A stretch of DNA of 62,340 bases from Candidatus Nitrotoga sp. 1052 (GTDB taxonomy: Bacteria > Pseudomonadota > Gammaproteobacteria > Burkholderiales > Gallionellaceae). The position numbers and the translations under genes were made by a program. The notes beneath the pieces are model-generated. The model saw only the letters and a list, made by a program, of their open reading frames with translations. It ran no database searches and was not told the DNA's origin. Positions 39,110 through 42,948 of the stretch are shown here, in pieces (the first letter of the stretch is position 1; the number at the start of each line of letters is the position of its first letter). The stretch covers positions 1 to 62,340 of the forward strand of contig NZ_CAKMHQ010000052.1 in assembly GCF_927312905.1 (NCBI RefSeq), in the 5' to 3' direction.

Positions 39110-40147
39110 TTGAATTTGCTCTCTATATCTCAATTCCTCCAACGCCATCTGCTCTGGTTCTTGATCGCTGCATATGTTATTGCCGTTGTTTTGCCAGTTC
39201 CCGGTCTCCAGATAAGGAATGTATCTTTCGGCGAGATCACTATCTACCAGCAGAAAACAAATATATCGTTGCTGATGATTATGCTCGCCATACTCATGTT
39301 CAATGCTGGCCTAGGGTTGAATATTTCCCATATTAATAAATATGTTGAAAAAAAATATGTATTACTGGCCGGGCTAGCTGCGAACATAACCATCCCAATC
39401 ATCTATATTTTTGGCGTAACGGTCTTGATGCGGCTTTGGTCTGAGCCGGTAGAAGCCCAACATATTCTTGTAGGTCTGGCACTGGTTGCAGCCATGCCGA
39501 TCGCTGGAGGGTCAACCGCTTGGGCACAAAACGCTAATGGAAATTTGGCATTGAGCCTGGGATTGGTACTTTTCTCTACAATTCTAAGTCCCATCATCAC
39601 TCCGGTAACGTTTAACATTTTTGGTGAGATGGCCTCGGAAGAGTTCGAGAAGGTCTTGCAGGGTTTGGCAGTATACGGCTCTGGTGCATTTCTAGGTCTT
39701 TGGGTGGTGCTACCATCATTGCTGGGCATTGCGGTGCGCTTGATAGTTGTCGAAGATTGGGTAGTTGGAGGAATGCCTTATCTGAAATTAATCAATAGCA
39801 TTGTTTTGTTGATGTTGAATTACTCCAATGCTGCAGTATCTCTGCCTCAAGCCATAGCTGATCAGGATTACGACTTCTTGGCCGTCACATTGGTCATTTC
39901 AGCAGGGCTATGTTTAACATTGTTTGCTGCAGGGTATGGCATGAGCCGCTTGTTCAAGTTGGACCGAACTGAGCGCGTCTCACTTATGTTCGGGCTGGGT
40001 ATGAACAATAATGGGACCGGGTTAGTGTTGGCATCGTTGGCTTTACCTTCTTACCCAAATATAATGGTGCCGATTATTTTTTACAACTTGGTTCAGCACA
40101 TTGCTGCGGGGACTGTGAATGAGGTAATGAACAGCTCGGTAGGTTAG
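39110..40147 (+). CDS. Bile acid:sodium symporter (BASS) family transporter
   Basis: A 345-residue membrane protein with about ten hydrophobic segments. BASS/ACR3-like features are the ILMFNAGLGLNISH segment, the conserved AAMPIAGGSTAWAQNANGN crossover region with SLGLVLFSTILSPIITP, and the second discontinuous region GLGMNNNGTGLVLASLALP. BASS proteins carry organic anions (pantoate, 2-keto acids, bile acids) with sodium; the substrate here is unknown. The start is TTG at 39110; an ATG upstream is out of frame. The stop codon TAG lies inside a REP hairpin (40143-40172), so the 3' end may have been formed or trimmed by that repeat. Confidence 0.85.
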   Translation: MNLLSISQFLQRHLLWFLIAAYVIAVVLPVPGLQIRNVSFGEITIYQQKTNISLLMIMLAILMFNAGLGLNISHINKYVEKKYVLLAGLAANITIPIIYIFGVTVLMRLWSEPVEAQHILVGLALVAAMPIAGGSTAWAQNANGNLALSLGLVLFSTILSPIITPVTFNIFGEMASEEFEKVLQGLAVYGSGAFLGLWVVLPSLLGIAVRLIVVEDWVVGGMPYLKLINSIVLLMLNYSNAAVSLPQAIADQDYDFLAVTLVISAGLCLTLFAAGYGMSRLFKLDRTERVSLMFGLGMNNNGTGLVLASLALPSYPNIMVPIIFYNLVQHIAAGTVNEVMNSSVG

Positions 40148-40172
40148 GCTGAATGAAATGAAGCCCAACATC
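40143..40172. repeat. REP hairpin, left copy
   Basis: The 30-base unit has arms GTTAGGCT and AGCCCAAC around the loop GAATGAAATGA. It is preceded by GTAG at 40139-40142, the tetranucleotide form typical of REP sequences recognised by RAYT transposases. It is the inverted copy of 40502-40531 (29 of 30 matches). Confidence 0.85.
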
Positions 40173-40191
40173 ACTGGGAATGGATGAACAG

Positions 40192-40500
40192 ATGCGTTAC
40201 CGACGTGCCGATGCAGCGGGAAGCAAACACTTTTTCACTGTTAATCTAACTGAACGGCGCTCCAATGTGATGTATTAGTGCGGCATATCGATGACTTGCT
40301 TGCGGAGATGAAAACGGTGAAAAACGCGCATCCGTTTGCAATTCTGGCGATAGTGGTGTTACCAGAACACCTGCATGCGATATGGCGCTTGCCACTTGGC
40401 AATGCCGACTATCCGCTGCGCTGGTCGCTCATCAAGACAGGTTTCTCGCGGCGGCTGGCAAAAAGCTATTCGTGCCAGCCGCCAAGCCAAGCGTGAGGTG
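40192..40500 (+). pseudogene. REP-associated tyrosine transposase (RAYT), decayed
   Basis: Frame 1 (from ATG 40192) gives MRYRRADAAGSKHFFTVNLT and stops at 40278. The next frame continues with VRHIDDLLAEMK, HPFAILAIVVLPEHLHAIWR and WSLIKTGFSRRL. This includes the HUH-type HLH metal site of Y1 transposases, in the LPxHLHAIWxLP context specific to RAYTs. A second frameshift near 40465 displaces ASRQAKREV, and the C-terminal third is missing where the right REP begins. Two frameshifts plus truncation make it non-functional. Confidence 0.85.
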
Positions 40501-40501
40501 A

Positions 40502-40531
40502 GATGTTGGGCTTCATTTCATTCAGCCCAAC
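40502..40531. repeat. REP hairpin, right copy
   Basis: Arms GTTGGGCT and AGCCCAAC enclose an 11-base loop; the unit is inverted relative to 40143-40172. Together the two copies flank the RAYT remnant like a REP doublet. The stem is a perfect 8 bp. Confidence 0.85.
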
Positions 40532-40602
40532 CGCGCTGCGAACATCTGACCCTATTTGTTCATATTTATTTTCGAACGAGGGTAGGCCTCGATCCCGGCA
40601 AG

Positions 40603-41134
40603 CTAGGCTTCGGGGAGCCCAGTTATCGAAACCTTCTGCCCGCCAGTATCATCCATAGTCGCGACGAGCAAGGCAAGCCGACCGTGGGCAACTGTCTTTC
40701 CCCAGCTAACGTGAACACCTCCAAGCTTGGCACGGTGCATGGCGAAGGAAGCAATCTTGAACTCGCATTGACCAATAATGCAGAACGACGAAATTGGCCG
40801 AAGAACAAGGGGATCAAGCTTCTTCAGGAAGAGTGGCCTCTTCAAAGTATCGTGCGGCGGCTCGCAGCGAAATTCGAACCACGTGTGCTCCTCTTTTCCT
40901 TCAGCGAGGAGATAGTCACGGGCGAAGTTCGAATTTGCGACTGCTTGAACGTATTCGGTTGCTTGGCAGAGTTCGCTACCATCTTCAATATAAAGGTGGT
41001 TGTCCTGCAGGAGTACAACCGTCTCTTCGGGAAGACTGTCAGTCGCCAATACGGTGGCCGTGACCTTTGTCGGAGTAATTGAGACTGTCTTCGTCCAAAG
41101 CGTTCCATTGGCGCCAATTATTGATCCGGCAATA
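40603..41134 (-). pseudogene. C-terminal fragment of a PD-(D/E)XK-nuclease-like gene, split by an IS630 element
   Basis: This frame has no start codon of its own before it meets the insertion sequence. It encodes ANGTLWTKTVSITPTKV, LPEETVVLLQDNHLYIEDGS, TWFEFRCEPPHDTLKRPLFL and ends VSITGLPEA. Removing the element from 41135 to 42215 and one TA joins it in frame to the N-terminal fragment at 42216-42609, giving a 307-residue protein. The C-terminal part is a predicted alpha+beta domain I do not recognise. Confidence 0.75.
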
Positions 41135-42215
41135 AATTGTTGAACTTAAGCTGCATATTTTACAGGCGCATGTTCAAAGTAGCTTTTTACACGCGCGGGT
41201 GATTTCTGTAGCTTGCGCATGTGACTGGTAGTCGCTTTGAGTAGTTGCCCCTTTGTTCGCGCAGGTGCCTTGGTCGTCACTGCCTGTTTGAGATCCGCAT
41301 TCAGCATTTCATCTGGATTCAACTCAGGGCTGTAACTCGGCAGATAAAATACTTCAATTTCGTCCTGATGTTTCGCTAGCCATGCCTTAACCAGCTTGGC
41401 ATGGTGGACCCGCAAGTTATCCAGAATCAGGAATACCTTACGCTTGGCATCTTTCACCAACCGCTTCAGAAATGCGATGAGCTGATCTGAATCCAACGCG
41501 CCGTTCAGCACCATCCACCTGACCTTGCCTTGGTTCGTGACAGTGGAGATAAGTCCCACGTTCTCGCGTTTACTGTTGACCCGCACCACGGGTGTTTTTC
41601 CTTTGGGTGCGAAAGAGCGTCCGCGCACGTCATCACTGCGCAATCCAGTTTCATCTCCCCAGTGGATTTCAGCTCCTTCTGCTTTAGCACGTTCAGCAAT
41701 CACCGGATAACTGTTATCGAGCCATGCCTTCACCTCGACTGGGCGTTGCTCATAAGCTTTTTTAATCGGCTTTTGGGGGGTAAATCCCCAGCGCGCCAAA
41801 TACGTACCAACAGTCCGGACAGGTAGCTTTATCTTGAACCGTTGCCCTATCAATTCCATCACCGCCGTGCGACTCCACAGGGCGTAAGGCATCTTTATCT
41901 GATCAGGGGTCTTGTCGCGAATAAGTTTCTGAACTTCACTCTCCTATTCAGCAGTCAATCTTCGCCCCACTCCCATAGAGCGTCCACGTGGTTTTAATGC
42001 CATCCCCGCCCAACCACCCAGACAATATGCCTTATGCGCAGCGATGACCGTGCCACGCGATAGCTCACATTCCCGCGCAACGTCATTCACCAGCATCCCT
42101 TTTTCCCGAAGTTTGACTGCACGCCTGCGCCTTTCGGCTAATGCCTGCATCGGGAGTGTCCTTCCGTCTTGTCGTTCCATGCACAATCTGACAAGGCATC
42201 ATCAATTAAGTTCAA
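41135..42215 (-). mobile_element. IS630-family insertion sequence
   Basis: About 1081 bp between TA dinucleotides at 41133-41134 and 42216-42217, the target duplication typical of IS630/Tc1-mariner elements. TTGAACTTAA occurs near the left end (41140-41149) and inverted as TTAAGTTCAA at the right end (42206-42215). The left end has about five more bases outside this repeat, so the exact tip may differ by a few bases. It carries one transposase gene, interrupted by an amber codon. Confidence 0.85.
41146..42186 (-). pseudogene. IS630-family transposase with internal amber stop
   Basis: The N-terminal part has the HTH (VNDVARECELSRGTVIAAH) and ends at TAG (41946-41944), just after RRLTAE. The same frame continues without shift through KLIRDKTPDQIKMPYALWSR into the DDE domain: IHWGDETGLRSDDV, KVFLILDNLRVHHAKLV and FYLPSYSPELNPDE, the classic D...D...E residues. 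So a single nonsense change (probably CAG to TAG) separates two otherwise intact parts of a 346-residue protein. It is inactive unless the stop is read through. Confidence 0.9.
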
Positions 42216-42609
42216 TATTTAACTGCCGAGTCAATAGTGAAGGAAAGTCGGTGCTATCAACGTCTTCAAGGGAGAATGTCTCAATGCCATATGCCTCTGC
42301 GACACGGCGGGCTTCCGGGGTGAATCCGGACTTGGAAGCAAGAATCAGTGCGTTTGTAGGGAGCCGTTCATGTTTCGTGCGCGATGCATCGACCCACTGC
42401 ACATCGGCTGGCCGTTTGTGGTCACGGCACTCAACGCAAACCATCACAGCCTGGCCGCCAACGCGCCCTTCGATGCAGACGTCAACTTCGCGTTGATTCC
42501 GGGTAACACGGTCTCGAAGCATCTTCGATTCGGTAACCGTCGCCCCAGCCGCGAGATTTGTCCGTACGAGGTATACGAGTTTCTGGAATTCGTTTGTTCG
42601 CTTTGGCAT
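42216..42609 (-). pseudogene. N-terminal fragment of a PD-(D/E)XK-nuclease-like gene
   Basis: It encodes about 131 residues beginning MPKRTNEFQKLVYLVRTNL. A restriction-endonuclease-like core can be read: RNQREVDVCIEG, then AVMVCVECRDHKRPADVQWVD, where D (EVD) and ExR/K (ECR) sit at the spacing of Mrr-like nucleases, followed by a helix (TKHERLPTNALILAS) and ARRVAEAYGIETFSLED. In the present DNA the frame runs into the IS630 end and stops (IELN). Rejoined to the 40603-41134 fragment it forms one frame of 307 codons. Confidence 0.75.
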
Positions 42610-42799
42610 AAGGGGAGGTGTTTTGAAAAATTAAACGGGCCAGGCACGGATTATTCATAGCGCTTGTCATCATAATCCAAATTCCCCTTATCCTACGTCG
42701 TGCACTAAAGATTCGTAATAATTCTTTTGCGGCCTGCCGCGTAGCTTGGCCTCCCGCTTCTGTCCAGTCATGGCTTCGATCATTGCATAGAAGCGTAAA

Positions 42800-42940
42800 G
42801 GGCACCTCTAAAAATTCAATTTTCGTCACAATACGGCGTTACTCGAAAAAAATTATCGCTTACATATTAACAATATGCCTCGCTCAAATTTTTTACTCGT
42901 GCCTTGTCTTGCCTAGAAAATTGAATTTTTAGAGGCGCCC
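42800..42940. repeat. MITE-like element with 25-bp terminal inverted repeats
   Basis: The 25-base arms 42800-42824 (starting GGGCACCTCTAAAAATTCAA) and 42916-42940 (ending TTTTTAGAGGCGCCC) match at 24 of 25 positions. The 91-bp interior is AT-rich and non-coding. The form suits a small non-autonomous transposable element. It ends 8 bp from the mnmC stop. The gap 42610-42799 has no supported gene. A stray similar end (ATAGAGGCGCCCTCAA) occurs at 32105-32120. Confidence 0.75.
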
Positions 42941-42948
42941 TGAATTCA

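Follow-up and report, generated by a model that had tools for sequence, protein, structure and literature searches.

Among the described relatives of the gene considered here are the Mrr-type nucleases, whose motif is given as PD-QXK in the excerpted text of PMC11037411. In certain other families (DUF506, DUF790, DUF1626 and YhgA-like), according to the portion of PMC1913061 consulted, a basic residue has shifted from motif III to the following helix. Elements of the IS630/Tc1/mariner group are described, in excerpts of PMC2170065, as inserting at TA and duplicating it. The gene lies in the window, by which is meant the whole stretch of DNA analyzed, a 62-kb contig (62,340 nucleotides) within the 3.23-Mb, 99-contig genome of Candidatus Nitrotoga sp. 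1052. Nitrotoga is an environmental nitrite oxidizer.

A gene split by an IS630 element

The first-pass annotation took two open minus-strand fragments flanking an IS630-family element to be pieces of one gene, and this reading is borne out by uninterrupted homologues spanning both halves: L007 (the same as L017, 296 aa, from Nitrotoga sp. LAW) and L018 (from another genome of the genus). A single ancestral gene was split by an IS630 element at a TA, and the TA was duplicated. The parts are as follows.

42235..42609, minus strand: N-terminal part of the nuclease gene, codons 1-125 including one copy of TA (91.5% DNA identity to L007, upstream flank included)
40603..41118, minus strand: C-terminal part of the nuclease gene, 171 codons plus stop (gapless with L007 and L018; no Pfam, NCBIfam or PHROGs family)
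42202..42609, minus strand: frame of 135 aa, now open from the gene start into the element (nuclease domain plus short element-encoded tail)
41121..42234, minus strand: IS630-family insertion sequence (inverted ends, TA duplication, comparison with uninterrupted genes)
41121..41149, no strand: terminal inverted repeat, 29 bp (23/29 positions the same as at the other end)
42206..42234, no strand: terminal inverted repeat, 29 bp (23/29 positions the same as at the other end)
41119..41120, no strand: TA target duplication, copy 1 (a single TA in uninterrupted L007/L017)
42235..42236, no strand: TA target duplication, copy 2 (a single TA in uninterrupted L007/L017)
41146..41892, minus strand: C-terminal part of the IS630 transposase, winged HTH and DDE_3 (NF033545, 184 bits)
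41944..42186, minus strand: N-terminal part of the IS630 transposase (same frame, in-frame stop before the rest; HTH models below cut-off only)

Joined in silico at one TA, the flanks make 891 nt, or 297 codons including the stop, and align end to end and without a gap to both L007 (94.8%) and L018 (95.3%). A gapless homologue across both halves, which the first-pass annotation had proposed to seek, therefore exists. The best named relative is that of Candidatus Nitrotoga sp. LAW, with 96% protein identity over residues 1-126. The insertion TA sits in codon 125, and at this point the intact gene of two further genomes in the genus has ...CCTTCAC-TA-ATTGG... (in L007, CCTTCACTAATTGG, translated PSLIGANG).

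Comparison of the flanks with uninterrupted L007 (= L017) and L018 places the element at 41121-42234 on the minus strand, a length of 1,114 bp. The edges proposed earlier, 41135 and 42215, both lie inside the inverted repeats. The earlier joined frame came to 308 codons rather than 297 because it retained 14 and 19 bases from the element's ends (33 bases, 11 codons extra), and the junction read from it, "RQLNIAGSI", is mostly element sequence because those ends fall within the repeats; uninterrupted L007 has PSLIGANG at that point. Empty sites whose junction sequence differs had been named as evidence that would tell against the split gene. Such a difference was found, and it disposes of the proposed junction but leaves the interruption itself intact.

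The transposase is of the IS630 type by NCBIfam NF033545 (184 bits, cut-off 100) and by Pfam DDE_3 (130 bits, cut-off 28.6), and its two open reading frames, in the same frame, are separated by an internal in-frame stop. A second IS630 copy, partial (591 bp) and 95% identical, lies on another contig of the genome. As an event, the insertion of an IS630 element into the nuclease gene is ordinary. Since both halves are otherwise open, it looks recent, and the substitution counts are too small to say more. From the start codon, only the 135-aa nuclease-domain frame with its element-encoded tail is still readable in this strain, so the two-domain protein is no longer readable from one frame.

Other repeats lie nearby. 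A 143-bp element with 26-bp inverted ends occupies 42799-42941, between mnmC and the nuclease gene, and is absent from the same site in L129, L130 and L133. It belongs to a MITE-like family: stretches of at least 117 nt occur in at least 40 places in the genome, of which one is the window's and the rest are 90-97% identical, with scores covering 40 of 87 candidates. At 40142-40532, inverted repeats of 31 nt (97%) surround a short stretch with broken frames, which presumably resemble a REP-associated transposase; sequence close to mnmC in L131 and L132 matches the repeat arms as well. The window's genome has a second copy of mnmC (G000 C45:2912-4411), which has 97% identity to that of the window over residues 155-617 but is broken, each of its two pieces having a counted TAA. 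G006, from the same genus, has a partial mnmC copy (C1:2265657-2266283, in L023) between its intact nuclease gene and its full mnmC, with 76% identity over residues 398-609 and 2 stops.

The two domains and the putative active site

Profile and predicted fold together show the N-terminal half to be a PD-(D/E)XK domain, as first proposed, and one of the Mrr type. Pfam Mrr_cat (PF04471, curated cut-off 21) matches it at 21.7 bits (frame 42202-42609) and L007 at 21.9. L012, L013 and L014 also exceed the cut-off, while L008 and L011 fall under it (19.2 and 19.4), so that 5 of 7 N-terminal-domain proteins tested are over, as are L051, L070 and L029; L027 has no Mrr_cat match in Pfam. The predicted model of L007 (8 rows, pLDDT 82.4, pTM 0.63) has the secondary structure H-E-E-E-H-E in residues 6-92, and the only PDB match found by Foldseek at E <= 0.001 is AF1548 (E 8.2e-6), followed by Can2, MspJI, AspBHI and Cdn1, from E 1.2e-3 down. 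These matches may be assigned to the nuclease domain because they cover 112-142 alignment columns and involve known enzymes.

Other libraries gave little. PADLOC CARF-PDDEXK models match weakly (E 0.017 and 0.052), and NCBIfam, among the nuclease proteins searched, returned matches far below cut-off for L007 and L012 and none for the rest. Searching PDB sequences with A1 turned up one match, to a proteasome alpha subunit (E 0.014), which was dismissed as chance.

Three sites in the gene are pertinent to the proposed active site.

42481..42483, minus strand: codon of D43, the motif II aspartate (invariant in 13 rows)
42424..42432, minus strand: codons of E60-C61-R62, motif III with R replacing K (from row alignments)
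42373..42375, minus strand: codon of K79, the helix lysine proposed as substitute for that of motif III (invariant in 13 rows; K in 24 of 31 lysine-less rows)

E41, D43, E60 and K79 are invariant in 13 rows. Motif III itself reads ECR in the window gene, without the (D/E)xK lysine by which the PD-(D/E)XK superfamily is recognized, and throughout the clade the residue is arginine, sometimes T, H or V (ECR, ECT, ECH, EVV). Among 67 distinct N-terminal rows, 64 were used (L073 was dropped for its gaps, L068 for a column without aspartate and L064 for its SCK), and the lysine is absent from 31 of the 64, most of which have ECR, others ECT, ECH, EVV or EVQ. In these lysine-less rows, column 79 in the next helix holds K in 24/31 and K or R in 30/31, as against 14/33 and 16/33 in the lysine-bearing rows (Fisher P 0.0056, uncorrected for relatedness). 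The exception is L027, of the window's own branch, which has neither lysine (motif III ECR, helix S). With 65 rows (L064 restored), the best tree needs no fewer than 3 changes of motif state, and well-supported branches force 2; because the tree allows only 2-3 independent changes, the association is not claimed to be independent of descent. The clade, then, mostly retains a helix lysine that may substitute for the one lost from the motif. In the window gene, by analogy with the families in which the basic residue has moved, K79 would be the residue standing in.

Neither Pfam (at E <= 1) nor NCBIfam nor PHROGs has a family for the C-terminal half. Modeled well alone (7 rows, pLDDT 88.1), it is predicted to be beta-rich, and the fold search gave nothing at E <= 0.001 in the PDB (576 matches at E <= 10) or in BFVD (1,157 at E <= 10). 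The initial judgment that this domain is an unfamiliar one thus holds across the libraries searched. A modification-reader domain, as in type IV enzymes, was sought in this half by Pfam, by PDB fold and by viral fold, and none was found. The domain aligns together with the nuclease domain in L007, L008, L009, L011, L012 and L013, and across 120 genomes it occurs only as this nuclease gene, in 3. A profile comparison with the C-terminal part of the Vibrio protein gave no match.

Distribution and neighborhood

Of the 19 genomes in the genus, 3 have the nuclease gene (the window's own, G006 and G009); 4 of 61 relatives match when a more distant hit in G059 is counted. Its neighbor mnmC (so named from two Pfam domains) has a strong match, above 900 bits, in 15 of the 19. 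Twelve of these mnmC genomes lack the nuclease gene, and eight of the twelve share the window's sequence from mnmC to 42623-42645, where the shared sequence ends, just upstream of the nuclease start codon; the nuclease gene sequence itself has no match in the gene-less loci compared. Since 8/12 of these loci match up to just before the start and none matches the gene, the nuclease gene is evidently an accessory gene at one site.

Farther afield, 398 genomes from the phylum of the window were queried with the single protein L008, and 2 had the gene, the window's own genome being one. Alignment searches found 10/349 in the window's order, 13/266 in its class, 13/296 in the phylum of L013, 20/294 in that of L014 and 2/57 in that of L012, counts that include the center genome and in which many matches are distant Mrr_cat-like proteins, alike in the N-terminal domain only. 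With such distant Mrr_cat proteins counted, five wider samples have the gene in 3-7% of genomes. The close named relatives come from betaproteobacterial, planctomycete and deltaproteobacterial MAGs and from Mycobacterium paraense. Four plasmid records carry relatives (L008 query), labeled only "restriction endonuclease" or "hypothetical protein". No match was found in phages by tblastn with L008 and L029, nor any relative in viral contigs scanned with L008 and A1, and PHROGs has no family for the window halves, L007, L008, L011 or L070 and one marginal match, to L051. In L010 (8001-8927), the first 108 residues of a relative appear, by eye, to be fused in frame to unrelated oxidoreductase-like sequence, through either a deletion or an assembly error.

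Some relatives have suggestive neighbors. Those in L024 and L095 adjoin GajA/GajB (Gabija) genes, and that in L029, on a Vibrio plasmid, adjoins PtuA/PtuB (Septu) and a PDC-S35 gene; neighbors in L101, L099 and L100 match SIR2, PDC-S73 and, weakly, PDC-M54A, respectively. In L008, a close relative (57% identical), an HNH endonuclease gene ends 120 bp upstream (26.5 bits, cut-off 21.4), and it matches no PADLOC model at 1e-8. Defence-like neighbors were found, by looking, at 7 of 27 loci. A second frame in L095 (831-1706, 291 aa), which the Gabija-like pair separates from the relative, has a weak match to the family's N-terminal profile (17.4 bits, E 1.6e-7, single-sequence search).

The neighbors tested comprised 111 proteins from 27 loci (110 within 3 kb and one hand-added GajB), the loci of L007, L010, L013 and L027 being omitted. 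These matched 304 PADLOC models at E <= 1e-8, but the models are redundant, so their numbers are not gene counts; a control of 75 proteins from 17 loci matched 6 models, with one member each. All ten neighbors chosen by eye matched, that of L100 weakly. The 35 neighbors from nine loci of the window's own branch (without L095) gave 17 models, each with a single member (PDC-S15 for the most part, with mad3, mad8, AriA and AbiLi besides). For the 49 at twelve other loci, the figure was 49 models, and each of the 25 listed had a single member (PDC-S01, PDC-S08 and reverse transcriptases among them). In neither group were models assigned to proteins, and for that reason no rate relative to the control is claimed. 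A restriction-type or defence role, which the first-pass annotation had suggested, is plausible, because some wider relatives adjoin Gabija, Septu or HNH genes, but the link to defence is anecdotal, as control neighbors match a few PADLOC models too.

Function and comparison with known systems

What might the intact gene have done? The accessory gene that the IS630 element interrupted at codon 125 is still uninterrupted in two or more further genomes of the genus. The reading we prefer, with about even confidence, is that it encoded a small DNA nuclease of two domains, an Mrr-type PD-(D/E)XK domain followed by a beta-rich C-terminal domain. DNA cleavage would fall to the N-terminal domain: D43 and E60 would bind the metal ions, and K79, in the helix after motif III, would replace the lysine missing there. 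The C-terminal domain would select the substrate, perhaps foreign, modified or damaged DNA. Such a protein could act as a stand-alone restriction-like enzyme, the loss of which would cost the host little. We know of no activity for any member.

Against the nuclease mechanism, motif III without its lysine (ECR, ECT, ECH, EVV) also fits a dead enzyme. The N-terminal domain would then be a catalytically inactive PD-(D/E)XK domain that merely binds nucleic acid, and the protein a sensor or regulator. The R, T, H, V or Q in place of the lysine in 31/64 rows would be understandable in such a protein, and four of eight proteins have weak, sub-cut-off similarity to NA-iREase1, the Pfam model of an inactive REase. 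But a dead domain need not retain D43 and E60, the putative metal ligands, and both are invariant in 13 rows; moreover, among the 31 lysine-less rows, 30 have a basic residue (K or R) at the helix position. An inactive domain is a real possibility, though a doubtful one. If the nuclease is active, it might serve DNA repair, recombination or plasmid maintenance rather than defence. G006 is the one Nitrotoga genome whose context was examined; there the intact gene has mnmC on one side and, on the other, genes that we take to be dnaJ/dnaK-like, surroundings with a housekeeping look. Many neighbors of relatives, too, belong to metabolic or housekeeping families. A housekeeping use of this kind nonetheless seems decidedly improbable, given the patchy presence of the gene (3/19 genomes of the genus and 3-7% in the five wider samples, distant Mrr_cat proteins included), the relatives on four plasmid records, the Gabija or Septu pairs beside three relatives, and Phage_integrase in 3/111 neighbors.

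As for the window strain, one may ask whether the split gene works even now, through expression of the 135-aa nuclease half or of both halves. The start codon and nuclease half are undamaged, both halves are open and free of other stops, and relative to L007, dN is below dS in each: 0.014 and 0.168 in the N-terminal half, 0.039 and 0.115 in the C-terminal half (L007 compared with L018 gives 0.015 and 0.095). Low dN/dS on so few differences, however, fits a recent insertion too. Furthermore, amino-acid changes relative to L007 are more numerous in the C-terminal half (14/171) than in the N-terminal half (4/125), the counts relative to L018 being 10 and 7, and the sole frame left to the C-terminal half beyond the element is one of 148 aa with a TTG start. 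Continued function is scarcely credible.

Returning to the restriction-like nuclease, one may extend the reading to a widespread clade of stand-alone Mrr-type nucleases in which the lysine has moved to the helix, with a new DNA-reading C-terminal fold in the window's branch. We think this unlikely, but if true, the clade would be a modification- or structure-sensing restriction family of new design. In the literature searched, we recognized no description of this clade or of this insertion. The modest interest of the locus lies in the variant motif III and the C-terminal domain without a family, not in the IS630 insertion. A clade with a changed active site offers a concrete target: does migration of the lysine keep the enzyme alive, and what does the C-terminal domain read? 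To this, the window adds a nitrite oxidizer that seems to have lost a gene of this kind recently.

The element resembles ISY100 and the IS630/Tc1-mariner group, as presented in the excerpts of PMC2170065, in its TA duplication, terminal inverted repeats and DDE transposase, and it differs in that its own transposase frame is broken by an internal stop. The gene is like those of Mrr-type type IV nucleases in its N-terminal match to Mrr_cat, at or near the curated cut-off, and in its PD-(D/E)XK-like model. It departs from them in having ECR as motif III, rather than (D/E/Q)xK, and a C-terminal domain without family match where a known DNA-recognition domain would be. The next-best Foldseek matches of the whole L007 model, over 117-142 alignment columns, are the CRISPR ancillary nucleases Can2 and Cdn1 and the modification-dependent enzymes MspJI and AspBHI, but neither Pfam nor PDB fold search found a CARF or SRA-like domain in the C-terminal half. 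The clade is also a family apart from DUF506, DUF790, DUF1626 and YhgA-like, and their motif IV is only tentatively likened to column 79; yet, as those families appear in the consulted portion of PMC1913061, it shares with them the absence of a motif III lysine and the presence of a conserved basic residue in the helix.
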